DNA of 64,000 nt from NCBI RefSeq assembly GCF_014762705.1, contig NZ_JABURL010000068.1:1-64000 (forward strand), read 5' to 3'. The stretch is from Cyclobacterium sp. GTDB lineage: Bacteria; Bacteroidota; Bacteroidia; Cytophagales; Cyclobacteriaceae. A program made the position numbers and the translations under genes. Numbering within the stretch: position 1 is the stretch's first letter; each line of letters begins with the position of its first letter. The notes under the pieces are model-generated. The model did not search any database. It was not told the DNA's origin and was given only the letters and a program-made list of their open reading frames with translations. Shown one piece after another: positions 271-61,137 of the stretch.

Positions 271-1734
271 CTAATCCCCTACATGGGCATTATAAAAACC
301 CCATACCTCATTGGCAACATTCCGACCTAGTTCAAGTCCTTCCAAATTATCGGATTGGATGTGATACCCACCTAAAACTCTGGAAAAGCCGGCCATTTCC
401 GCTGTTTCGGTAAACGTAGGAAAATGCAGAACAACTGTATCTCCCAAAAAATCGGGCTCCGTCATGGCACCGGCCACCAGGGTTGCGCTTTCACCAAATT
501 CGTCACTTCCTGTCCATAATCTTAGTGCCTCCGCACAGGCACCACTAACGGCACTGTGACCTGAAACATAACTTGGAAAAGGGGGACAAAGGAAAACCTC
601 AGGCGAATAAGGCCGCCACTGATTCCCGGGCAACTGGCTCATTCCTGTCTTTTCCCCTGCCCATCCATAGATCTGCTGGTCTTCAAAAAGTGAATGAACC
701 AAGGCAAAAGGCCTTGCATAATCGTAAAACATCTTGGAATCCCAGGCAGCAATAAAAGCATCCATGGCCACTACCTGGTTATAGAAATACATTTTCACAT
801 CCTGATCAAGGGTATGCTTGTCTCGTCTTGAAACATCCTGTGCAAATCTCAGCCAATGACCTGCCTGCTGTACAGATTTAGGACCATCCCGCATGTACTC
901 TACCAATGCCTTTTGATAATCTGTTAAATTGGATTGAACATCCACCACTTCCTGAACTTCCATATTAAGCTTTTCGGATCCGATTTTGGGAGGAGGGCCG
1001 GGACGAAATTGGTCTGCTGATTTTAGCCCGATTGGTTTAACTCTATCCCAAAAAGGCGTCAAACATGGAGGCGCAAACCTACCTCCTTTGCCATCGGAAA
1101 AATATTTGGGTTGCCACCTGCCAAGGTCCGAATTTACATCTGCGGAGTTGGCGGGTTTGTATCCGGTATAATCAAAATAGGGAATTTTAGAAGAACCAGG
1201 TTCTTCACCATATTGGTTGGCACCATCACCTTTTCTGGAAGATATTACATAAAAAGCTGCCAAATTCCCGATGCCTTCAGGAGATTTGGGATCCTTAGAA
1301 GACAGGTCGGGATCCAAACCCAAATCCAGCATAAATCCTGTAAAAAGCAGGCTATCCCCCGGGAAATATTCCATAAGTGCACGAAATGCGGCATAGCTAA
1401 TGGCAATTTCCTTTTTTTCCAAAGTCCTTTCCTCCTCAGGTCTCCTGGATACATCTTTCAAATAGACAGGAACTGCTTTGCTATCATAAGCCGTCCAGGC
1501 ATCAAACATGGATACAAAAATCAAGGCCAGATAACGGGAAGTTACCGTCGGTCGGGGTTTAAATCTCTCGGTATCGTTAGCAGTGGCTTCCAGTGCAATT
1601 TGGGCCCATTTATAGGCCAGGTTATCTTCTCCTAAAGGACCCTGATTCAATTTTGTTGAAGCATTGGTGCCGCAACCAGTGAGAAGACCCAAACAAACCA
1701 CAACATAAAAGGAATATAGCTTACATTTCTTCAT
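271..1734 (-). CDS. vanadium-dependent haloperoxidase / PAP2-superfamily lipoprotein
   Basis: A 487-residue secreted lipoprotein with lipobox LLTGC near residue 21. It carries the complete vanadate/phosphate-binding signature of the family: K-x6-RP (KMFYDYARP), then PSYVSGH at about residues 388-396, then S-R-x5-H-x3-D ([12 protein letters not shown]) at about 452-463. This fold holds vanadate in haloperoxidases, which oxidise halide with peroxide, or phosphate in acid phosphatases. The length and the PSYxSGH form favour the haloperoxidase-like branch, but activity cannot be decided from sequence. Its ATG overlaps the end of the upstream DUF255 gene by 14 bases, so the two are translationally coupled. 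It belongs to the minus-strand run that starts at the SusC/SusD pair. Confidence 0.88.
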
Positions 1735-3832
1735 AAGATGTGTGGATTAATTCAATAGCTTGCTCCGGTAAAGCCACCGGAAGTTTACAGGTATTATTTT
1801 TACAGACATAAATCATGGTTTTCCCCGCATAGAACCTATTATTGAACAGGGGCAATCCATTTTCCTTTTCCGACCCTACAATCAAAGTGTTGGGCAGGTG
1901 TTTCTCATGCAATTGTTGGATCAATGTTTTTGAATTTTCACCAACCACGGCTACCTCCATGTAGGGAAGCGAAATATGCATCAATAATTCATTCCACTTC
2001 CCATATGCCTGACCGTCGGAAAGGATGCTTGGCATCATGGAGGCCACCATATTTTTCGACTTCTTCAAAAACTCTTGTTTACCTAAAATATGGCCTAAAT
2101 GAAACAAATTCAAAGCCATTGAAGCATTGGGAGAAGGCAAGACACCATCATGGGTTAGCACAAGCGGAGATATCAATTCCTCTTTCTGATTGAACTTAAA
2201 CATACCTGAACCCTGATCCGGGAAAGTATCGATCACATGGGAATTTAGGCTCACTGCCAGATTCAAATGATCCTGATTCAGGGTAAGGGTATATAATTTA
2301 ATTAATGCCTCAATGAGAAATGCATAATCCTCCAGAAATCCGGGCACATGACTGCCTCCTTCTTTGTAGGAATGAATCAATTGGTTTTCCCTGAGAGAAT
2401 ATTTTTTTAGAAATTCAAGTATTTCAAGTGATTTATTCAAAAAGGCCTCATTCCCCGAAGCACTATAAGCCTCCAAAAATCCAATCATGAGCAAGGAATT
2501 CCATGAGGTGATTACCTTATCGTCTTTTCGGGGAGCGATGCGCTTCTGCCGAATCCCTAAAAGAAGTGAATTCCACTTTAATTTTAAATCCCGGAATTCA
2601 GCATAAGAAATTCCATGGTCATTTGCAAAAAACTTATCCGGCTTATCCCTGAAAAGCACAATGGAACTATCCTCCATCATTCGCTGAGATGGGAGAGAAT
2701 AATAAGCGGAAAATAAATCAAAATCATCCTCCAAAACCGCTTTCAATTCCGCTTCTTGCCATAAATAATATTTTCCTTCAGTCCCCTCCGTATCTGCATC
2801 TAATGCAGCATAATATCCTCCAGAAGGATGTTTCATTTCACGTTCCAAAAAATCAGTGATTCCAACAACGATGTCCTTGTAAAGATCGGCATCAAATTCC
2901 TTCATTGCGGTGGAATAAATGCGCAGCATTTGGGCATTGTCATAAAGCATTTTTTCAAAATGGGGAACCTTCCAATACGTATCCGTACTGTATCTAAAAA
3001 AGCCTCCTCCTACCTGATCATATATTCCGCCAAGTGCCATTTTGTTTAGCGTGTTTTGAACATGCTCCATGGATTCCTCATCCTTTTTAATTGAAGAATA
3101 ATTCAATAAAAAAGAAAGGTTGGTAGGCATCATGAATTTTTCATCTCCCCTATCCCCTCCCCAATCCAAGTCCCAGGTGGTTTTCCATCTACTTATACTT
3201 TCTTGTAAATTAGCTGCGCTGGTTTCGTCGGAATGAGTTAGGGGAACAATCTTGTTGGTTTCCTGAATACCCTTTGCCAGCATTTCCCCGTATTCCTCAG
3301 CTTTCTGTGTATCTTCTGTATAAAATTTATTTACATCAAGCAAAACCTGCATCCACTGTTCCCTGGTATGGTAAGTGCCTCCATACAGTGGATTCCCATT
3401 TGGCAAGGTGATTACATTAAGCGGCCAGCCTCCACTCCCCGTAATTAACTGGAGGGCCGTCATGTATACATTATCTACATCCGGACGCTCTTCCCTGTCG
3501 ACTTTTATATTGATAAAATGTTCATTCATCAAGTCGGCCACTTCCTGATCTTCAAATGTTTCTGATTCCATCACATGACACCAATGGCAAGAAGCATATC
3601 CGATACTCACCAATACAAGCTTTCCTTCTGATTTGGCCTGCGCCAGGGCCTCTTTGCTCCATGGCACCCAATCAACCGGATTACTGGCGTGTTGCAATAA
3701 ATAGGGGCTGGTTTCATGAATGAGGGCATTGCTATCGGGATGAACTACATTTACTTGTTTCCCCCTGCCACATGCCGCTAAACCGATAAAAACGGCGAAA
3801 AACAAATAATTTATAATGGATGACTCCTTCAT
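1721..3832 (-). CDS. DUF255 thioredoxin-like lipoprotein (YyaL/SPATA20 family)
   Basis: About 703 residues. The ATG at 3832 is preferred over the in-frame ATG at 3850 because MKESSIINY is followed directly by a hydrophobic stretch and the lipobox GLAAC. Near residue 80 is the family motif [12 protein letters not shown], a thioredoxin-fold domain with CxxC, followed by DREERPDVD. The remaining about 500 residues form the alpha/alpha-toroid glycosidase-like region found in YyaL and SPATA20. Members are usually cytosolic, so the lipoprotein signal is a variation that places this one in the envelope. The biochemical function of the family is not established. It overlaps the haloperoxidase gene and follows the FG-GAP gene with 50 bases between, which suggests one operon. 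Confidence 0.87.
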
Positions 3833-3882
3833 ATATTTGGCAATAAGCATTTTTAAGGAAAGTCGGATTTCAATAGCAGAAG

Positions 3883-6800
3883 TTAAGGATTAATCGGAGA
3901 AATCGCTGTTAAATTTAGGTTTTCCTTTTTTTCAATCCGGATGAGCTGAAGAAAATCATTGTTTTTGGCAAATAAAATCCCCTCATCCCCTCCGGCCAAA
4001 TTCATCTTTTTTGCTGATTTCACTTCTCCCCGTATCATCAATCCGCTTTGATAAGGCATTTGGCTTTCAAATCCCCCGTTTCCATTACCCAATAGGAGCC
4101 CCCCGTAACTGGAATCATTTCGTGGCGTCTCCACTTCAGATCCGTACAAGTTACCCGCATAGATAATATCCTGGTGGCCGTCTTGATTTATATCCAGGGG
4201 CACAAGTGTATTGATGGAGGATATTTGGGAGAAAGTATCCAATGGGGAAATCCTGAATGTACCGTCTCCCAGGTTTTCCAGGTATTGATGGGCAAAACTT
4301 TTCACCTCATAATGTGTGGATTTCTCCAAATATTCAGTCGTATAAATTTGCTCCAAACTGGCAGAGGCATAGGATTTGTAATCCTTAAATTTTGCTTTTA
4401 TGGCTGGAATTTGCTGGGAGGAACATTCCCTCCCCCGGACAGGAACTCTCACTCCTTTGTCTAAGTAACTTAAAACAAGATCATCCTTACTGTCATTATC
4501 GTAATCGTAGACATAAAGGCTGAAAGGAGATGACTGGCTTGCCTGGTATTTGTAGTTTTTCCCCAGATTCCCAACAATGAAATCGATATCCCCATCATTG
4601 TCAAAGTCCTCTCCAATAAGTCCAAACCACCAACCTTTGGTATGCTCCAATCCTGCATTACTTGAAGCATTGATAAATTTACCTCCTTTATTTTTAAGGT
4701 AGGTTATTCCCATCCATTCGCCTACCAGCATTAAATCATCCAATTTATCCCCATCCACATCTACCCACATGGCCTGGGTCACCATTCCCAAATCCAGCAA
4801 CTCAGGCGCTACCTCTTCGGTAACATCATCAAATTTTATTTCATCTCCACTACTATTGTTCCTCAAAATTCGACTTTTTGGGGCATGGGGATAATTTCTA
4901 GGTGCTACCCTCCCTCCTACGAAAAGGTCCAGGTCTCCATCCTGATCTATGTCCGAGGCAACTGCTACCGATCCGCTTTCTCTCATGATAGGCAGAGCCG
5001 TTTCTGATTTTTCAAATAAGCCATCTCCCCTATTTATATAAAACTTATCCTGATAATAGGCATCTCCTTTACGAAGTTCGTTGCCACCGCATACCACATA
5101 AAGATCAGACAAGCCATCTCCGTTTGCATCAAAAAACATGGCCCCTACATCCTCCTGGAACTTATCCTTTTCCCATAGTTCATGAAGAATTTCAGCAAAG
5201 GTTCCATCCTGATTTTGTACAAACATTTTTCCACTTTGACCAGAGGCCCCTCCGATATAAAAATCATCCAAACCGTCATTATCGATGTCCCCAACTGCAA
5301 GTCCGGGCCCGTACTCCGAAATTTTGTGTGGCAACAATACCTGATATTGAAAATCATCAAAGGTGTTTTCAGTATGCTGGTGATCTATGGAGGTAAGGGA
5401 AGTAATGTCGCTGAATAAACCAGGCTGAGAAACCGACTTAGCAGGTCTAGCTTCCTCAGCATCGGAATCATTTAGTGTGATTCTTTGGTTTGCGGGAATG
5501 TTTTCCAGCAGACTTTCACGGCCATCGGGCCATAGAACCCTGATCTTCTTGATTGAACCTGCCTTTCCAATTCCAAAATGAATGATTGGGTCTACAGAAG
5601 ATTGAAAACCCCTGGTAAGCGTCAGTTCCTGGTACTGGGTTCCTGCATCCGTTTCCAACCAAATTTTGGCTCCAATACCCAAAGTGTTTGCGGCATTCCC
5701 CTTTAACTCAATTTGTAAAAAATTAGCACTATCCTTTTCACTGGCATTATTTTCATAAATGCTTGCCCGATCATCCAGGTTATTGATTACCAAATCCAGA
5801 TCCCCATCGTTATCCAGATCTGCGTATGCCACTCCATTAGAGAAGCCGTTAAAATTTATGCCCCAGCTTTCTGATACATCGGTAAAGGTTAAATCTCCTT
5901 TGTTTTGAAAGGCAAAGTTCTTGATTTTTTCAGATGGAATCTTTTTGGTCAGATCAAGTGAATTTCCTTCTTCGAAATTTTGCACCTCATCACTTCTGAA
6001 ATAATCACTATTGTTAATATCTCTTCTTACACCATTTGTTACATAAATATCCTTATAACCATCGTTATCAAAATCAGCAAACAGAGAGGCCCAACTCCAA
6101 TCTGTGGAGGATACCCCAGCCATTTTTCCGATATCTCCAAAACGCGGCAAACCATTGCTGTCATTACCCATATGCAGTTGGAGTGTATTAATAGAATATT
6201 GGTGGTGCATATCATTATTTACCATGGAATAAAAGCGATCTGGATCCATGCTATCCATGTTTTCCTTAGCCCTTCGGTAACTTTTGGGCATCATATCCAC
6301 CTGATAAATGTCCAAATAACCATCATTATTGAAATCAGCCACATCTGTTCCCATTCCAAAATAGGAGGTATGATTGGTGAGTTCCAGATTTAAATCTGTA
6401 AAAGTCCCGTCCTGATTATTGATGTAAAAAAAATCGGGGGTACTAAAATCATTGGACACATACAGGTCTTGCCAACCATCCTGATTAAAATCTCCAACTG
6501 ACACACCCAAAGACAATCCGTATTTATCAAGTCCGGCTTCCCGGGTCCGTTCAGTAAAGTTTCCATTCCCTTCATTTCTGTAAAGCCGGTCGCTGCGGTG
6601 ATAGGGTGCAGCATTACGGTAGGTAAGGTACTCCATCATACTTGTGCGTGAAGGCACAATCGGATAATTTATTACATACAGGTCCTGAAGACCATCTCCG
6701 TTATAATCAAAAAAGACAGCCTGAGTGCTATTTCCGGCGTCCGCCAATCCATAGGCTTCTCCCATTTCGGTGAAGGTGGGGATGTCACCTTCCTCGGCAT

Positions 6801-7302
6801 TGTTAATAAACAATAAATTTTTTGTTGTTGTCCATTTACCTGAAACACTGACATAAATATCCATCCAACCATCCTGATTTGCGTCACCAACCGTGACCCC
6901 CGTCATCCACCTGTCATCACCTGCAACACCAGCCAGTTCGGTTACATCCTCAAATTTCATGTTTCCTCTGTTGAGGTAAAGTTTGTTTGGGACCATATTT
7001 CCTGTAAAATAAAGATCTTGCAGGCCGTCATTGTTAAAGTCCCCTACAGCCACTCCTCCTCCCATATAAATATACATGTAGTTAAAATAGTTAATGGAAT
7101 CATTTTCCGTCAGATTATTCGAAAAGTCTATCCCCGTGGCAGGAATGGAAAGTTCGTCGAATAGGGGGTGTTCATCGCCAGGTATTTCACAGCCCAACAA
7201 AAAAAAGAACAAAGCAATAGAGAGTAGGCTACCCCATATGCTTGAAATTTTATAAAAATTAAAACAAAAACACAAGAAATTATTCATCTGAGACAGGATC
7301 AT
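3883..7302 (-). CDS. FG-GAP/VCBS-repeat protein with ASPIC/UnbV domain (CRTAC1-like lipoprotein)
   Basis: A 1139-residue outer-surface protein. Fourteen calcium-binding DxDxDG-type repeats can be counted: seven (first DFNNDGLQD, seventh DLDNDGDLD) precede an ASPIC/UnbV domain at about residues 525-605, and seven follow it (first DIDNDGLDD). Two late repeats deviate ([18 protein letters not shown]). Such repeats fold as beta-propellers, so two propellers separated by ASPIC are likely. A hydrophobic segment ending LLGC near residue 38 is a lipobox. The alternative ATG at 7287 would shorten the leader. It lies 106 bases downstream of the SusD gene, behind a strong hairpin. Proteins of this type often sit beside SusC/SusD pairs in Bacteroidota. 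The ligand is unknown. Confidence 0.88.
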
Positions 7303-7408: not shown

Positions 7409-9226
7409 TCAATCTTCATATCCGGGATTTTGCTCTATATTATTATTGCTGCGTTGAATTTCTTCTCTGGGTATTGGAAACCTATAATAGAAATCTCCCG
7501 GCCAGGGAAAGCGGGGATCCACCTCGGGTACTTCGCCATAGGTATAGTTTAAGGTACCCATTAAATCACCTTCTTCCGCTGTGGACCAATCCATTGTAAC
7601 ACTGGTTAGCCCTCTTATTGGATTGATGTCGATATTTCCGGGAGCAGCTTTCCAACGCAACAAATCCCAAAATCGCATGTCCTCCAGATGTAGTTCTACG
7701 GCACGTTCATTGCGATAATCCCTTACTAGATTATCACCAGAACTGGTAATTTCGGGCATATCGACGGAGGGTCTTTTTCTTACCCTATTTATGTATTCCC
7801 TGGCCAAATCTTCATTACCCAAAGCCATCTGAATTTCGGCATAATTGAGGTAAAATTCTGCCAATCGCATGAAAATCGTCGTTTGGCTGTAATCAAAATC
7901 AAAACTTGCCCTTGGGCCCTGAAAATCCAACAGCTTTCTAAACGTATAACCGGTCTGAACCCTCCAGTGAAAAGGAGTTAGTCCTTTTACCCAATAGGTT
8001 TTTGAATCCCTCCCAAAATCAAAAAGGGTCTGATTATTTATGGGATCAATTTTGTTGGGATTTTCATAGGGGGGTTGGTTGTCTGGATTAGGATTCGCAT
8101 CCTCCCAATATTCGTATAGTCTTTGCGTACTTTTTGACCCATCGATGATATTTACCGGCCCTGCACCCGGATATAAAATATAACTGTAGTACCTGGGATC
8201 CCTGTTTACATTTGGATTTTGTTCGTCATAACCGGAATTGGGGTTGACTGTCATTCCATCAGCTAAATAAGGGTATTCTCCATTCTCCATTTGAAACATA
8301 TTGATGAATTGCTGGGTAGGCATGAGTCGCTGCCGGGCATCAAAACCACTTGGCCAATAGTCATAATTATACCCCCAATCCGGGATTCTGGATCCGGCTG
8401 TATACGTTCTGCCAAAAACCGTTTCATTCGTTTCAAGAGGCTGAAGAAACAACTCCTCGTGATTTTCGTGAAGGGTAAAACCCGCATCGATCACGGCCTT
8501 AGTCGCTGCAGCTGCTGCCTGCCATTTACTCATGTCATTGGTCGGGTTATTGAGCGGGCTGGCCATGTACAACAACATTCGGGCCTTTAATCCCATGGCG
8601 GCTTCTTTGCTAATTTTACCGGCGGCTGGGGTTACACCTTCTAAAAGGGTAATGGCCAAATCAGCTTCATCCAAAACAAATTGGGCACACTCATCATAGG
8701 AATTTCTGGAAACATCGAAGGACTCATCACTCAAGCTAAAGCTTTGGGTAATTAAGGGTACCCCACCAAAGGTTCTGATCAGCTCAAAATACATCCAGGC
8801 CCGGAGGAAGTGTACTTCTCCCTTCATGCCGTTAAGGAGTTCTGCATCAATACTTGATCCTTCGGTTTTTTCAAAGAAAATATTGGCTCTACGAATAAAA
8901 TCATATTGCTCCGCCCAAATATTGGTCAATTGGGTAACATTGTCAGGGGTGATATTTCCCTCCAAATATTGGCGTATTCCAGCAGCCCTGTCGTGCGTAT
9001 CGGGAGCAGAAACTGCTATATCGGTCATACCAATATAGCCACCGCTACCTGGTCTCCAATGAGGTTTAATCCCGTTGTACATATTATATACATAATTCTG
9101 TAGAAAGGTGGGATCGGTAAATACATTTTCTTCGGAGATAGCATCCAGGGGAGTTACCTCAAGAAGGTCTTCGTTGCAGGCGGAGAAAACAAATCCAGTT
9201 AGCAGTATGATATAAAATTTTTTCAT
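7409..9226 (-). CDS. susD-like: SusD/RagB-family outer-membrane nutrient-binding lipoprotein
   Basis: About 605 residues. The ATG at 9226 gives a clean lipoprotein signal (MKKFYIILLTGFVFSAC), so it is preferred over in-frame ATGs at 9268 and 9256. The first of these overlaps the SusC stop by one base. Typical SusD features follow: N-terminal NEDLLEVTP, TPR-like helices, a C-terminal RagB/SusD region with YLNYAEI, the ERAVELHLEDMRFWDLLRW signature, and a final FPIPREEIQRSNN stretch. SusD proteins cap the SusC barrel and bind the substrate at the cell surface. The substrate cannot be read from sequence. No glycoside hydrolase lies in this operon, so it need not be a polysaccharide. Confidence 0.95.
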   Translation of the reverse strand: MKKFYIILLTGFVFSACNEDLLEVTPLDAISEENVFTDPTFLQNYVYNMYNGIKPHWRPGSGGYIGMTDIAVSAPDTHDRAAGIRQYLEGNITPDNVTQLTNIWAEQYDFIRRANIFFEKTEGSSIDAELLNGMKGEVHFLRAWMYFELIRTFGGVPLITQSFSLSDESFDVSRNSYDECAQFVLDEADLAITLLEGVTPAAGKISKEAAMGLKARMLLYMASPLNNPTNDMSKWQAAAAATKAVIDAGFTLHENHEELFLQPLETNETVFGRTYTAGSRIPDWGYNYDYWPSGFDARQRLMPTQQFINMFQMENGEYPYLADGMTVNPNSGYDEQNPNVNRDPRYYSYILYPGAGPVNIIDGSKSTQRLYEYWEDANPNPDNQPPYENPNKIDPINNQTLFDFGRDSKTYWVKGLTPFHWRVQTGYTFRKLLDFQGPRASFDFDYSQTTIFMRLAEFYLNYAEIQMALGNEDLAREYINRVRKRPSVDMPEITSSGDNLVRDYRNERAVELHLEDMRFWDLLRWKAAPGNIDINPIRGLTSVTMDWSTAEEGDLMGTLNYTYGEVPEVDPRFPWPGDFYYRFPIPREEIQRSNNNIEQNPGYED

Positions 9227-9267
9227 CAGGCTGCTTGTTTTAATGCTGATTTTCATAACGTTTTTCA

Positions 9268-12200
9268 TTAGAAAGAAAGATTAAGACCAAAACCCAGAGT
9301 TCTCATATTGGGGTATGTACCCCCTTTACCACTGAGAAACTCAGGATCACCTGCACCAAATTCTGCCAGATTATTGTAAATCATGAATAAATTTTCCCCT
9401 GATAAATACACCCGTAATCCAGAAATACCGATTCTATCCATAAGCGGTCCTGGTAAATTGTAACCCAACTCAGCAGATTTAAAGCGGACCCATCTGGCAT
9501 TGTGATACCAGAAATCATTGTTTTGTGCGGCAAAACCCACCGGCCGAATTCTAGGAAGGATTGCATCAGTATTCTCCAAATCATAAGTATTGTTGGCCAC
9601 ATAGGCCAATCCATTTCCATTGGCTCCCGTATCAAAGCCGTTGTCAAGCCTGAACTTCCCCCCGTCTTGCCCCTGAAGCAACATTGTCAGGTCGAAGTTT
9701 TTATAATCAAACCCTATGGTCATTCCAAATTGGGACCTGGGAAATGCGTTGATGTTGTAGCGGTATCGGTCATTCCCGTCAATGACACCATCGTTGTTCA
9801 AATCATTGAATATCAGACTCCCTAAAGTAGCATTGGGGTAGCTGACATAGGAATCCAGGTCATCCTGTGTACGGTAAATACCAATGGCATTGTAAACCAA
9901 TTCTGAACCTATAGGCATTCCTTCCAGATTTTGATAGGGCTCAGCCTGAGGTACTTCATCGAAGAATATGATTTCATTGTCGTTATAGGAATAATTGGCA
10001 CTAACTCTGTAATTGACCAGCCCAAAATGTTCCCTAAAACCCAATTGAAATTCTATCCCGTGACTTTTCATCTCGCCGATATTTTCATCGGGTAAAATCA
10101 GTCCGGTATAGCCTGGAATAGAAGCCTGCCTTCTGCCCAGGATATTGGTCGTGTATGTTCGGTAGACATCCGTTTCGAAAGTCAATCTATCCTGCAAAAA
10201 ACCCAGCTCCAATCCAATATCCGTTGATTCGGAAACTTCCCAAGTTATATTGGGATTTGGAGTTGTCAGAGCCGCTATTCCCCGTACATCGGCACCATTT
10301 ACTACCCAACCAGGTCCGTATCCAAACCGGCCAATGTACTGAAAAGGGTCTACCCTGTCATTTCCCAGTTTGCCCCAGGATGCTCTTAGTTTTAAATTAC
10401 TAAAAAGGTTGTCCGACATAAATGCCTCTTCACTTACTACCCATCCTGCCGACAAGCCCGGAAAAAAGCCCCATCTGGTTTCCTTTGGAAAAATGGGGGA
10501 TCCATCATACCGGAAGTTAAAACCAAACAAGTACTTGTTGCTGAACTCATAATTTAAGCGTCCAAAGTAGTTTTGCCGGGCATTTTCGCTGGCACCTCCA
10601 CTATTGTTCCATTGACTCCTGTTTTCGCTACCTGCGAAAAGCTGGTCAATTTGGGGAGAATCAAATCCTAACCTTTGCGCCCAAAAGAAATTGTCATCAT
10701 AGGTCATTTGCTCGTAAGCAATGAATCCACTTACCCTATGATTGGTTTTGATAACCCTATCATAAGCTATTTTCGAATTCAGGGTTATCATCGTACTTTG
10801 GTTAAAATCCTCCCTTAACCCGATATCCTCAACAGTACGCGAGGTTCTTTTTACAATAACTCCTTCGGAGTTTCTCTCGTAATAATCCCATACGTAATCA
10901 AAGGATTTATTGTAATTGAAAGTCTTTACAATAGAGGCAAAACCGTCCACCGACAAGCCTTCCACAAATGGAATCTTGTATTTATACCTGAAGGTACCAT
11001 TGGCTACATCTCCTGTATTTCGTCTATATCCCGGACTTAAAAGCCGGGCGGCAGGATTTAAATGGGACCAACCTTCTCCAGGATATCTGTAATCCCCTCC
11101 AATATAAGCCTCCTGCAAGGGACTGGTGGAAGCAAAGGCCCCAATAGCACCTGAGCCACCTTGAGGAGATTGCGTGAATTTTTGTCGGATCGACAGATCA
11201 ATTCCAACTTCCAAATCATCCGTAACGGTTACGTCCAGGTTTGCACGTACATTGTATTGTTTGAGCTTCGTAATATCATCGGCGCGGAGTATACCTCCCT
11301 GATTGACCATTCCTACAGAAGTAAAATACCTAATCCTGTCAGATCCGCCACGCATGGTTAATGATTGCCTGGAAATGATTGCGGGAGGGTCTACCAAGGC
11401 ATCCCACCAATCTTCCGCACGACGGCTCCCATTTCTGAAAGACTCCACCAAATCGTCTGGGAATACTGCTCCACCACCTTCCAGTACCCTATTCCGGTTC
11501 AAAACATCCATGTAGTCAAAAACACCTGCCGACTTAACCTTCATGGTAGGCGACTGAAACAAATGGGAAGTGGAAAAATTAAAAGTTGGTTTCCCGGTCT
11601 TTCCTCGTTTTGTAGTAACCAAAATCACTCCACCAGCAGATTGGGCTCCATAAATAGCTGCTGAGGCATCTTTTAAAACAGAAATGGATTCTATATCATT
11701 CGGGTCCAATCGGTTGAGCCCATCAGGATCTGCGTTAGCTACACCATCAATTACAATTAATGCCGAATTATTTCTGGTGGTATTGAATCCCCTTACCAGT
11801 ATTTGCGCATCATCGAAACCTGGAACTGCACTTCGCTGGTTGACATATAAGCCTGCCAACCTTCCAGATAAGGCGTTGGAGAGGGATACCGCTGATGACT
11901 TTTTAACCTCCTCACCGGAGGTTTGAACCACTGCATTGGTTAGTTCGGATTTCTTTTGAGTACCATAACCGAGAACAATAACTTCGTCGAGTGCCTGTGC
12001 ACTCTGCTCCATGGTAATGTTAATGGTGGTTTGATTTCCCACTTCTACCGTCTGACTCTCAAACCCAATAAAGGAAAAGACAAGGGAGGAGCCTTCGGGA
12101 ACGACTATCGAATATTTTCCATCCATATCGGTGGCTGTTCCTGAGTTGGTACCGGGAACAAATACCGTCACCCCTGGTATGGGGTCACCATTTGCATCCA

Positions 12201-12618
12201 CAACCGTACCAGTAATCGTTACTTCAACGAGTACAGCTTTCGACCTGTCTTTTGATTTCGAAAATTTTACGCTGATTTTATCATCCACCTGCTTAAAGGC
12301 CAATTGGTGGGAAGAAGAAAGGGATAACAAAACGGATTCCAGTGTCTGATCCTCAATCTGAATACTTACCTGATCTGCGCCTTCAAGCAGACGATCGTCG
12401 TAAATAAAAGAAAACTCCGTTAACCTCATTATCTCAGAAAAAGTCTCTTCCAAAGAAACATCTTCAAGGTCTAAACTCAGGTGAACTTGCTTAATATCCA
12501 GTGAACCCTGGGCATTGGAAGGAGCCGCATAGATCAGTGGTAAAAAAAGCATCTGGATCAGAAATCCATACAAATAGTATTTTCCTATCATACATAGGGC
12601 ATGTAATAATTTTTCCAT
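9268..12618 (-). CDS. susC-like: SusC/RagA TonB-dependent receptor with signalling STN domain
   Basis: 1116 residues. After the signal peptide comes an STN (secretin/TonB short N-terminal) domain at about residues 45-115, then a CarboxypepD_reg-like domain (ITGTVVDANGDPIPGVTV) at about 133-215, the TonB-box region near LDEVIVLGYGTQKKSE, a plug domain, and the beta-barrel ending in an aromatic residue (LNLSF). The STN domain is the part that, in FecA-type systems, contacts a FecR anti-sigma factor. A FecR gene and an ECF sigma gene lie directly upstream, so this receptor probably reports substrate binding to transcription as well as importing. The stop codon overlaps the first possible ATG of susD. 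Its leader contains strong inverted repeats (12658-12726). Confidence 0.95.
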   Translation of the reverse strand: MEKLLHALCMIGKYYLYGFLIQMLFLPLIYAAPSNAQGSLDIKQVHLSLDLEDVSLEETFSEIMRLTEFSFIYDDRLLEGADQVSIQIEDQTLESVLLSLSSSHQLAFKQVDDKISVKFSKSKDRSKAVLVEVTITGTVVDANGDPIPGVTVFVPGTNSGTATDMDGKYSIVVPEGSSLVFSFIGFESQTVEVGNQTTINITMEQSAQALDEVIVLGYGTQKKSELTNAVVQTSGEEVKKSSAVSLSNALSGRLAGLYVNQRSAVPGFDDAQILVRGFNTTRNNSALIVIDGVANADPDGLNRLDPNDIESISVLKDASAAIYGAQSAGGVILVTTKRGKTGKPTFNFSTSHLFQSPTMKVKSAGVFDYMDVLNRNRVLEGGGAVFPDDLVESFRNGSRRAEDWWDALVDPPAIISRQSLTMRGGSDRIRYFTSVGMVNQGGILRADDITKLKQYNVRANLDVTVTDDLEVGIDLSIRQKFTQSPQGGSGAIGAFASTSPLQEAYIGGDYRYPGEGWSHLNPAARLLSPGYRRNTGDVANGTFRYKYKIPFVEGLSVDGFASIVKTFNYNKSFDYVWDYYERNSEGVIVKRTSRTVEDIGLREDFNQSTMITLNSKIAYDRVIKTNHRVSGFIAYEQMTYDDNFFWAQRLGFDSPQIDQLFAGSENRSQWNNSGGASENARQNYFGRLNYEFSNKYLFGFNFRYDGSPIFPKETRWGFFPGLSAGWVVSEEAFMSDNLFSNLKLRASWGKLGNDRVDPFQYIGRFGYGPGWVVNGADVRGIAALTTPNPNITWEVSESTDIGLELGFLQDRLTFETDVYRTYTTNILGRRQASIPGYTGLILPDENIGEMKSHGIEFQLGFREHFGLVNYRVSANYSYNDNEIIFFDEVPQAEPYQNLEGMPIGSELVYNAIGIYRTQDDLDSYVSYPNATLGSLIFNDLNNDGVIDGNDRYRYNINAFPRSQFGMTIGFDYKNFDLTMLLQGQDGGKFRLDNGFDTGANGNGLAYVANNTYDLENTDAILPRIRPVGFAAQNNDFWYHNARWVRFKSAELGYNLPGPLMDRIGISGLRVYLSGENLFMIYNNLAEFGAGDPEFLSGKGGTYPNMRTLGFGLNLSF

Positions 12619-12625
12619 AAATTTG
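12618..12625 (+). promoter_or_regulatory. candidate -7 box (TAAATTTG) for an antisense transcript
   Basis: A perfect match to the Bacteroidota -7 element TAnnTTTG, on the strand opposite to susC and starting at the first base of the susC start codon. No TTG is seen at the usual -33 spacing. It stands upstream of two stem-loops and a T-tract on the same strand. Confidence 0.4.
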
Positions 12626-12631
12626 GGTGTT

Positions 12632-12734
12632 TTATTGTGAGTTTTCAGTAAAACAAAGGCAAATAGGTAACATCTGATAAATCTTTCTATTTGCCGGACA
12701 AAGTCAATGAGAAATCATTGGCTTTGTTTTTTTA
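12632..12734 (+). ncRNA. candidate cis-antisense small RNA over the susC leader
   Basis: On the plus strand the FecR-susC gap holds a -7 box at 12618-12625, then a perfect 9-bp stem (12658-12666 with 12687-12695, 20-base loop), then a 12-bp stem with one G-T wobble (12699-12710 with 12715-12726, loop GAAA) followed directly by a run of T. The last element looks like an intrinsic terminator pointing away from susC, where no plus-strand gene needs one. This predicts an RNA of roughly 100 bases antisense to the susC 5' leader. Cis-encoded antisense RNAs that repress susC-like genes (DonS type) are known in Bacteroides polysaccharide loci with sigma/anti-sigma control. The transcript start is inferred and the RNA itself unproven. 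The stems could also act in the sense susC leader. Confidence 0.42.
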
Positions 12735-12761
12735 TCGATCTGTTTTCTTCATCCAATTTGA

Positions 12762-13817
12762 TTAATGTTCGAAAACTAACTTAACTTTTTTTTGATCAAT
12801 GATGTGATTGAACCCGTATGCATATCCAACGGATTCCAAAACATTACTTAAATAGCTGTCCTTGAATTCCCCCGATATTTTTAACTTCTGTTTTGGCTTA
12901 TTCTCCAGAGAAATTTCTACCCCATACCATCGCTCAAGTGTTAGTTCAAATTCAGAAAGCGAGGCATTGTCAAAAAACAAAACTCCTGATTTCCAGGAAA
13001 AGGCTTTTTTTGGATTAAATTTACTCTTGGTGATTTTTTGGTTTCCAACAGATGTCACTTCCTCTCCTGGCTCAAGAAAAACAAGTTGATTTTCCAGCAG
13101 CTCATTTACGACCTCAACCTTACCTGTAGCAAGTTGAACCTTAATTTTTTCGGGATTATAGGATTGAATATTGAAGGAAGTACCAAGGGCAGTAGTGATG
13201 ACTTTCCCGGAAAATACCCGAAAAGGTAATAAACTATCCGGGACCACTTCGAAAAAAGATTCACCAATCAAATGAATCTCCCGATTATTCACGCCAAAAT
13301 CACTCCTGTATTTGATTTCACTATCGGCATTGATGATTACCGTGCTGCCATCTGGCAAATGAATCTTTGATTTTTGCCCTTTTGGATTGAATTTGGTTAT
13401 CCAATGTGGCTTATTTTCAGTTTTTCCCAATTCTGGTGCTGTATGATACTTTACCACATCAAATGCCAAAAACCCCATCATTGAAATGAAAATCACTAAC
13501 AAAAGCATCGAAAACCTCCTCCAATGATTTTTATTGGAATGGTCTAATTTCACTGTGTAATGCCCCCTCCCGGGTTTTCCTTGCTGAATATTTTGGTGGA
13601 TACTGGAAAGCAACAAAAGTTGATCCTGTTCTTCCCAATCCTCCCCGGTCGCTTGAAATTCCAGCAAAATTAACCTGGCCTGGTTTAAAATTATTCCTTT
13701 CTCCTTATCTGAAGCCATTTTTTCCCAAAAACAACCGTTCGAAGTATCATCATGTAATACCCAGGATAAAAAGGATTTATCCTGCAAAAAATCTTCTATG
13801 GTGTTGTATGACTTCAT
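12762..13817 (-). CDS. FecR-family anti-sigma factor
   Basis: 351 residues. The cytoplasmic N-terminal part (about 1-95) is followed by one membrane span near 102-122 (MLLLVIFISMMGFLAFDV). Next is the periplasmic FecR domain, with IHLPDGSTVIINADSEI, the GESFFEVVPD block and TTALGTSFNIQSY. The C-terminal DUF4974 part (LERWYGVEISLENK) is related to STN. It sits between the ECF sigma gene (139 bases upstream) and susC (143 bases downstream), the standard order of a trans-envelope signalling unit. It is expected to hold the sigma factor until the SusC STN domain signals. Confidence 0.93.
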   Translation of the reverse strand: MKSYNTIEDFLQDKSFLSWVLHDDTSNGCFWEKMASDKEKGIILNQARLILLEFQATGEDWEEQDQLLLLSSIHQNIQQGKPGRGHYTVKLDHSNKNHWRRFSMLLLVIFISMMGFLAFDVVKYHTAPELGKTENKPHWITKFNPKGQKSKIHLPDGSTVIINADSEIKYRSDFGVNNREIHLIGESFFEVVPDSLLPFRVFSGKVITTALGTSFNIQSYNPEKIKVQLATGKVEVVNELLENQLVFLEPGEEVTSVGNQKITKSKFNPKKAFSWKSGVLFFDNASLSEFELTLERWYGVEISLENKPKQKLKISGEFKDSYLSNVLESVGYAYGFNHIIDQKKVKLVFEH

Positions 13818-13956: not shown

Positions 13957-14562
13957 TTAATACCAATGCAAATTAAAATAGAATAAAAAAATAACTTTGG
14001 ACGTGAAATCACTGTGTGACAAAACGGTCTTTAAGGATTTGATTCCCTTAAATATTAAATTGTAGATTGAAGGAATTTGAACTCCCATTAATTCAGAGAT
14101 TTCGTCATAGGTCAATTCCTGAAGATACCTCAAATAGATTGCCTCTTTTTGCCTTAGAGGTAAAGCGTCAATTGCTCGACTAAGTTTGTGGGTTGAATCA
14201 AGGCTGATCTGATTTTCCTCTAATATTTCCTGAAAAGATACTTCCCAGGAAATTTTAGAATGGTAATCCTCAATACTCTCGTATTTACAGGCTACGTTGA
14301 CACGCTTGATTACCTCCCTCCTAAAGCATGAAAAAAGATAGAATTTTATTGACTTATTGATGAAAAGCACATTTTTGGACTCCCAAATATGAATGAAAAC
14401 ATCTTGTATTACGTCCTTGATCAATTCCGTATCCTGCGTGAATCGAAATCCATATTTGTATAAGTCTTTGGCATGGGTTAGATAAATATGATCAAAGGCT
14501 GTTTGATCACCATCTGCCACCAATTTCCAAAGTTCAATGTCTTTTAGTATGTGAAACTTCAT
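13957..14562 (-). CDS. ECF-type RNA polymerase sigma factor (sigma-70 family, FecI-like)
   Basis: 201 residues. Region 2 covers about 10-75 (QTAFDHIYLTHAKDLYKYG, then DVIQDVFIHIWE). Region 4 covers about 125-180, with LPLRQKEAIYLRYLQELTY and a helix-turn-helix around DEISELMGVQIPSIYNLI. There is no region 1 or 3, as expected for the extracytoplasmic-function class. It is the first gene of the minus-strand sigma/FecR/SusC/SusD run and probably activates the susC promoter. The C-terminus is longer and more hydrophobic (VIFLFYFNLHWY) than usual. A -7 box lies 38 bases upstream. Confidence 0.94.
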   Translation of the reverse strand: MKFHILKDIELWKLVADGDQTAFDHIYLTHAKDLYKYGFRFTQDTELIKDVIQDVFIHIWESKNVLFINKSIKFYLFSCFRREVIKRVNVACKYESIEDYHSKISWEVSFQEILEENQISLDSTHKLSRAIDALPLRQKEAIYLRYLQELTYDEISELMGVQIPSIYNLIFKGIKSLKTVLSHSDFTSKVIFLFYFNLHWY

Positions 14563-61049: not shown

Positions 61050-61137
61050 CAGAGAGGAAGGGATTCGAACCCTCGATACCCTTTAGGGGTATACACGCTT
61101 TCCAGGCGTGCTCCTTCGACCGCTCGGACACCTCTCT
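61050..61137 (-). tRNA. tRNA-Ser (anticodon GGA)
   Basis: 88 bases on the minus strand. The acceptor stem is AGAGAGG with CCTCTCT and discriminator G at 61050. The D-arm begins TCCGAG. The anticodon arm is CACGC-CTGGAAA-GCGTG with anticodon GGA. A long variable arm (TACCC-CTAAA-GGGTA) marks class II (Ser), and the T-loop is TTCGAAT. CCA is not encoded. It lies alone between exbB and the asparaginase gene. The gap 60751-61049 holds nothing else recognisable. Confidence 0.97.

Follow-up and report, generated by a model that had tools for sequence, protein, structure and literature searches.

A candidate DonS-type antisense RNA with conserved hairpins opposite the leader of a FecR-linked susC gene in Cyclobacterium

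The antisense RNA DonS is linked to sigma/anti-sigma control, and in the plasmid antisense RNAs CopA and RNAI, which consist of stem-loops, pairing may begin between the loops of the RNA and their mirror images in the target leader. Several small RNAs are described at susC homologs. The DonS family comprises cis-antisense RNAs of 78 to 128 nt that are encoded against, and negatively affect, susC homologs and that are tied to mucosal glycan PULs; the same paper gives a canonical promoter for 52% of the cis-antisense candidates of Bacteroides thetaiotaomicron (PMC7366714). In this species 32 PUL-associated asRNAs are reported, some of them anti-correlated and others positively correlated with their PULs (PMC10994844). 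asRNAs are also reported at 15 PULs in Bacteroides fragilis, and antisense RNAs in general in Flavobacterium psychrophilum (PMC9723704). FopS and GibS of B. thetaiotaomicron are small RNAs that address the translation start region of susC homologs; as excerpted, FopS acts in trans through a 5' seed, and 9 of 14 are classed as intergenic and 4 as antisense (PMC11697453). None of the best-ranked literature matches described an antisense RNA to a susC leader outside Bacteroides.

Here we describe an element on the strand opposite a susC leader in a 64,000-nt stretch of DNA from Cyclobacterium sp. (herein the window). Its best explanation, which on the sequence evidence we hold to be likely, would be a cis-antisense RNA of the DonS type, about 105 nt long, that pairs with the susC leader.

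Layout of the antisense element and its locus

The features of the locus, in window coordinates, are as follows.

12618 to 12625, plus strand: −7 box TAAATTTG, a perfect match, sharing base 12618 with the susC start codon
12629 to 12735, plus strand: predicted antisense small RNA of about 102 to 107 nt, with an inferred start at about 12629 to 12632 and an inferred end in the T-run
12629 to 12654, plus strand: H1, 5' hairpin of 9 pairs with an 8-nt loop, directly 3' of the promoter element
12658 to 12695, plus strand: H2, hairpin of 9 to 10 pairs with a long apical loop (one G-U pair, added by RNAfold, besides 9 Watson-Crick pairs)
12696 to 12733, plus strand: H3, intrinsic terminator with a 15-pair stem (12696 to 12729), a GAAA loop and a T-run (12727 to 12733)
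7409 to 9268, minus strand: susD-like gene, from a domain scan
9268 to 12618, minus strand: susC-like TonB-linked receptor gene (L270), the presumed target, with its start codon at the 12618 end
12762 to 13817, minus strand: FecR-like anti-sigma gene with FecR and FecR_C domains
13957 to 14562, minus strand: ECF-type sigma factor gene with sigma-70 regions 2 and 4

The locus thus holds a susC/susD pair together with a sigma/FecR pair. The gap between fecR and susC is 143 nt; both genes are on the minus strand, and the antisense element lies on the plus strand opposite the susC leader (12618 to 12735), a cis position. CAT, the complement of the susC ATG, occupies 12616 to 12618 on the plus strand and overlaps the −7 box at base 12618. 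An initial annotation of this DNA had given the −7 box with its correct sequence and coordinates, and the nine Watson-Crick pairs that it claimed for H2 were found. The terminator with its GAAA loop and T-tract is there as well; the stem, given as 12 bp from 12699, has 15 pairs from 12696, includes G-U pairs and runs into the T-run. H1 had been overlooked. The core of the H2 apical loop reads CTGA in the window and CCTGA in most relatives. No TTG or TTTG was found at the −33 position of the focal antisense promoter; the −33 motif was likewise not identified in Flavobacterium johnsoniae, according to PMC7366714. Upstream of the antisense −7 box, the early susC codons (12590 to 12606) are unchanged, or nearly so, in DNA among orthologs and paralogs.

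In a protein search the SusC is 99% identical to one of Cyclobacterium plantarum, which fits the earlier placing of the locus in a different order from Bacteroides. Downstream of susCD, genes for FG-GAP/ASPIC-UnbV, DUF255 and VCPO/PAP2-like proteins occupy 271 to 7302 on the minus strand. A glycoside hydrolase was absent among the 7 scanned genes of the locus, which is not an obvious polysaccharide locus. An Rfam scan of the window returned no family for the antisense element, its sole match being a tRNA gene at 61050 to 61137 (minus strand), and a DNA search of the own genome gave short matches and no second copy of the element.

Within the window, TAnnTTTG occurs 27 times on the plus and 26 times on the minus strand (CATAnnTTTG, 4 and 0 times), so the −7 box alone is weak evidence. 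Terminator-like sites on both strands between 8000 and 18000 show no excess (9 vs. 11.0 expected). The plus strand from 12630 to 12737 folds at −34.4 kcal/mol (z = −6.2), with 0 of 200 shuffles as good; the minus strand of the gap has z = −4.1, likewise with 0 of 200 shuffles as good. Since the box is common and terminator-like sites are not in excess, the case for the element rests on comparison with relatives, and conservation, rather than the terminator count, is what makes the predicted element significant.

The comparison with DonS drawn in the initial annotation is apt. Like RNAs of the DonS type, the focal RNA would be short and cis-encoded against a susC homolog; its predicted length of 102 to 107 nt, between inferred ends, falls within the 78 to 128 nt published (PMC7366714, as excerpted), and it has a canonical −7 box and its own terminator as sequence elements, without a −33 box. 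Unlike the Bacteroides cases it belongs to another order, and whereas the published RNAs, in the excerpt, lie at mucosal glycan PULs, the focal locus has no glycoside hydrolase among its 7 genes. The three-hairpin fold with covariation is described here for the focal element. By its position, promoter element, terminator and sigma/anti-sigma link, taken as sequence features, the focal RNA would work like the DonS type and is probably of that kind. It resembles FopS and GibS in a predicted action at the susC start region but, going by the excerpt on FopS, differs in that FopS acts in trans, whereas the focal RNA would act in cis with full complementarity. CopA and RNAI are likewise stem-loop antisense RNAs, with a different target and biology; a loop contact of their kind is only suggested here, by the strand-neutral conservation of H2.

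Association with FecR-linked susC genes

As a control within the own genome, 30 of the 56 susC matches were examined and assigned by coordinates as FecR-linked (11) or unlinked (19). An antisense terminator was found at 8 of the 11 FecR-linked genes vs. 1 of the 19 unlinked ones, and the antisense box at 9 of 11 vs. 1 of 19. The two Pedobacter relatives of the SusC (67 to 68% identical) lack, by eye, both the box and the hairpin set around the start codon; their genes have no fecR upstream and an opposite-strand gene in its place. The arrangement therefore follows sigma/FecR control and not susC as such. The link to sigma/anti-sigma control proposed in the initial annotation is borne out by these counts and by the sigma and FecR genes upstream of the focal susC.

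We then considered 157 FecR loci: 17 from the own genome, 60 from 11 of 12 other family genomes (among the matches listed; one genome has 93 matches) and 80 from 26 genomes within a sample of the phylum (among the matches listed, about 85 of which were FecR-sized), in which 28 of 51 genomes had a FecR_C match. Removal of 9 loci with no start found and 4 with a gap above 300 nt left 144, with 74 gaps of 85 to 300 nt and 70 shorter ones; the 85-nt cut was set after the gap lengths were seen, and next-gene start codons were chosen by rule, so that some may be wrong. The gene that follows matches the SusC/RagA model after 72 of the 74 long gaps and 54 of the 70 short ones.

Antisense terminators scoring −11 kcal/mol or better are present in 57 of the 74 long gaps, where shuffles predict about 7. 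Orthologous pairs within a genus (e.g., L112/L115 and L137/L142) occur among the phylum loci, which makes these counts partly non-independent. Sense terminators occur in 7 of the 74, above the shuffle expectation of about 1.2, and 5 of those 7 gaps carry both. Antisense terminators were found in 3 of 74 sigma-fecR control windows and in 4 of the 70 short gaps. For the own genome, the family and the phylum sample, respectively, antisense terminators number 12 of 15, 19 of 27 and 26 of 32 (2.3, 2.2 and 2.8 expected from shuffles) and sense terminators 0, 2 and 5 (0.0, 0.2 and 1.0 expected); equal windows before fecR hold 1, 2 and 0 antisense and 1, 2 and 4 sense terminators. At −8 kcal/mol the long gaps yield 59 antisense (about 20.5 expected) and 12 sense terminators (2.1 expected). 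The 17 long gaps with no scored antisense terminator include L037, which has a 12-pair stem that fails the T-run rule. Positive loci of the phylum sample fall in six families (11 of 11, 7 of 7 and 5 of 7 loci, and three families represented by a single locus each, including that of the window); in three further families, 0 of 4 loci have an antisense terminator.

The box shows the same distribution. TAnnTTT lies near the start codon on the antisense strand in 41 of the 57 terminator-positive loci, vs. 8 of 70 short-gap loci and 10 of 155 fecR starts, and in 5 of the 17 long gaps with no scored terminator; for TAnnTTTG the counts are 21 of 57, 0 of 70 and 1 of 155. The register CATAnnTTT is exact in 39 of the 41 loci, and a spacer survey of the same 41 gave no clear peak for TTG at −33. 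The first 45 nt after the box have a mean z of −2.08 on the antisense strand vs. −0.44 for the reverse complement, with z below −1.5 in 26 of 41 and 8 of 41 loci, respectively. As these 45 nt fold well in 26 of the 41 loci, a 5' hairpin appears to be usual.

Two loop types were seen in these gaps. A terminator loop G-TT[AG]N[AC]G-C recurs in 9 of the 57 loci, from different families (L036, L040, L048, L050, L110, L118, L137, L142 and L191); counted over the 74 gaps it occurs in antisense orientation in 10 and in sense orientation in 4, with 1.2 expected from mononucleotide shuffles. A second type, ATTTGGCGATGG, is common to three paralogous fecR-susC gaps of the own genome (L042, L043 and L044), in which the middle hairpin apparently doubles as the terminator.

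Conservation, strand preference and alternative explanations

Relatives of the element were compared in a MAFFT alignment of 11 sequences that was not fitted to structure (A1) and in two alignments fitted to a model, A2 and A3 (the wider set, 30 rows), which lean towards structure. When 12 genomes of the genus were searched with the DNA, long matches turned up in 9 (the own genome included) and a short one in G010, which nevertheless has a covariance-model match; G003 and G009 gave no DNA match to the element. Further named relatives came from the protein search with SusC. The box region CATAAATTTG is invariant in all 11 rows of A1, and the full box CATAnnTTTG is present in 23 of the 30 rows of A3, with 7 deviating. 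Over H1, H2 and H3, 94.9% of pair cells are kept in A1 (97.3% paired in H1), and the covariation of 0.244 compares with 0.176 ± 0.013 in shuffled alignments, none of 500 being as high; it also exceeds that of all slid versions. In the 30 rows, 24 of 32 pairs show two-sided changes, vs. 12.4 when shuffled (0 of 500 as high): 8 of 8 modelled pairs in H2, 13 of 14 in H3 and 3 of 10 in H1, where 7 have one-sided changes. The sequence of H3 is mostly divergent in L016, L017, L019 and L034, with pairing and T-run still kept. The conservation check that the initial annotation had proposed thus finds stems, T-run and −7 box kept, with compensatory changes, in antisense orientation at fecR-susC gaps, and supports its reading of a small antisense RNA of about 100 bases.

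A covariance model built from A1 (R1) found more members, both within the genus and in further genera of its family. Of 245 family genomes, 26 have R1 matches at E = 1e-3 or better. Among 22 family loci examined (L085 to L106), whose context was judged from ORF ends, 16 have a FecR-like ORF on one side and a susC-like start on the other, in the same orientation, and 6 (L097 and L099 to L103) are unrelated terminators. The 15 weaker genus loci comprise 8 in fecR-susC gaps, 5 unrelated and 2 ambiguous (L080 and L081). L080 (L034:12348-12471) is a three-hairpin copy (E = 2.6e-11) whose flanking ORFs resemble neither FecR nor an intact SusC start, and is perhaps a decayed paralogous locus. A second model (R2), run on 296 phylum and 292 order genomes under strict filters and rough calibration, had the focal element as its sole match at E = 1e-4; these samples may or may not include genomes matched by R1, and the result would say little beyond the narrow covariance subfamily.

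If the element encodes an antisense RNA, the sign of its regulation is the least certain step. The RNA could be mainly an activator or stabilizer of the leader, or act in trans on susC genes that share the loop, instead of serving as a brake in cis. The CCTGA core of the H2 loop is present in 25 of the 30 rows, across paralogs; several genomes have 2 to 4 model matches, of which context confirms only part; and some asRNA-PUL pairs are positively correlated (PMC10994844). DonS, the one case described as validated, represses, however, as told in PMC10994844 and PMC7366714, and full complementarity speaks for action in cis, so that we regard this alternative as unlikely, though with some weight.

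For the terminator another role can be imagined, namely that it only halts stray antisense transcription before fecR and the sigma gene, with no discrete regulatory RNA. A strong terminator would suffice for this, and a position beside fecR fits. Such a role leaves unexplained the conserved H1 and H2 with their paired changes, the −7 box in fixed register and the rarity of the arrangement at susC genes without FecR (1 of 19), and we consider it very unlikely.

What pairs as G-U in one strand becomes an A-C mismatch in its complement, and the changes within the stems therefore bear on the strand that is selected. Two weak rows of A2 were removed before this count, whereas A3 retains L081 and the L080-type row of L034. 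For the plus strand, G-U cells outnumber A-C cells 53 to 1 in H1 and 60 to 6 in H3; the ratios are 30 to 0 and 38 to 2 in the 19 rows outside model building, and 23 to 1 and 22 to 4 in A1. As G-U is far above A-C in both, H1 and H3 are selected as plus-strand RNA. H2 has no plus-strand preference (G-U 6 vs. A-C 7; in A1, 2 vs. 5), and this hairpin is compatible with either strand.

These counts weigh against a structured leader of the susC mRNA, formed by the minus strand as an attenuator or a cis-regulatory fold, of which the plus-strand hairpins would be the mirror image. The sense strand preserves H2 just as well, and in the window this sense hairpin is followed by a T-rich stretch and scores −10.8 as a sense terminator; the gap folds on that strand too (z = −4.1), and in 4 of 11 rows (L034, L016, L017 and L019) the sense z is about as low as the antisense z or lower. 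The changes in H1 and H3, however, would be mismatches on the minus strand, and a T-run adjoins H3 on the plus strand only. The T-rich stretch 3' of H2 on the sense strand is interrupted in relatives (e.g., CATCGTTTCA in L016), which disfavors a sense attenuator. Across the 74 gaps antisense terminators predominate over sense ones (57 vs. 7), and the 5'-terminal 45 nt of the RNA fold better than their reverse complement at the 41 loci (mean z of −2.08 vs. −0.44). A sense leader as the basis of the conservation is, on balance, highly improbable.

On the sense strand, a GCCTATG block followed by an A-rich stretch lies near the fecR stop, just before the antisense T-run (e.g., L036, L040, L043, L046, L137 and L142), and often runs at once into ATG-TAA or ATG-AAA-TAA. 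GCCTATG-like sequences (pattern NCYTATGNA) are enriched in the long gaps (20 of 74, compared with 4 of 74 control windows and 1 of 70 short gaps), but a search upstream of GCCTATG revealed no second block that is constant. The block could be part of a sense promoter or a minimal ORF. The H2 loop was considered as part of an ECF promoter and is disfavored because the spacing between AGTTT and the H1 GTTT varies, by eye, from about 25 to 29 nt, whereas that of a promoter is fixed. That the conserved blocks are DNA elements (an ECF sigma promoter or an operator) with an incidental fold would fit the conservation of the H2 loop and of the GCCTATG block near the fecR end, but has next to no probability given stems that change in sequence yet keep pairing (H3 is largely different in L016, L017 and L034) and the missing constant block upstream of GCCTATG.

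Proposed mechanism and significance

Returning to the cis-antisense RNA, the element is, judging from its conservation and setting, probably a real regulator of its susC. In the mechanism that we infer, the housekeeping sigma factor would transcribe the plus strand via the −7 box, whose first base is common to the susC start codon. The RNA would fold as three hairpins and end at the intrinsic terminator just before the fecR end. The part of the susC leader that it covers would lie about 11 to 117 nt ahead of the AUG, on the assumption that the leader mRNA overlaps this region. With the sigma/FecR system off, the RNA would most likely pair with susC leader transcripts that arise from fecR read-through or leaky initiation. 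The first contact would probably be made between the H2 loop of the RNA and that of the susC leader, loop-first contact being the simplest reading of an H2 conserved without strand preference. Pairing would then block ribosome access or trigger cleavage of the duplex. Once the sigma factor is active, sense transcripts would outnumber the antisense RNA and override the brake.

More tentatively, and as a proposal that may well prove too broad, such an antisense layer could extend over at least several families of the phylum, tied to sigma/FecR/SusC signaling rather than to susC genes or PULs generally, with the box fused to the start codon, a 5' hairpin and an end before fecR; in one clade a middle hairpin would be under constraint in both strands as the contact loop, possibly shared in trans among the loci of a genome.

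Sigma/anti-sigma pairs control many SusC systems of the Bacteroidota, and the papers cited above place such antisense RNAs in gut Bacteroides. A layout that is conserved, strand-specific and, in the own genome, largely confined to FecR-linked genes would make this a class that is predictable from sequence and testable in free-living species. The base shared by the start codon and the antisense promoter would mean that the beginning of the susC coding sequence evolves together with the promoter of the RNA.
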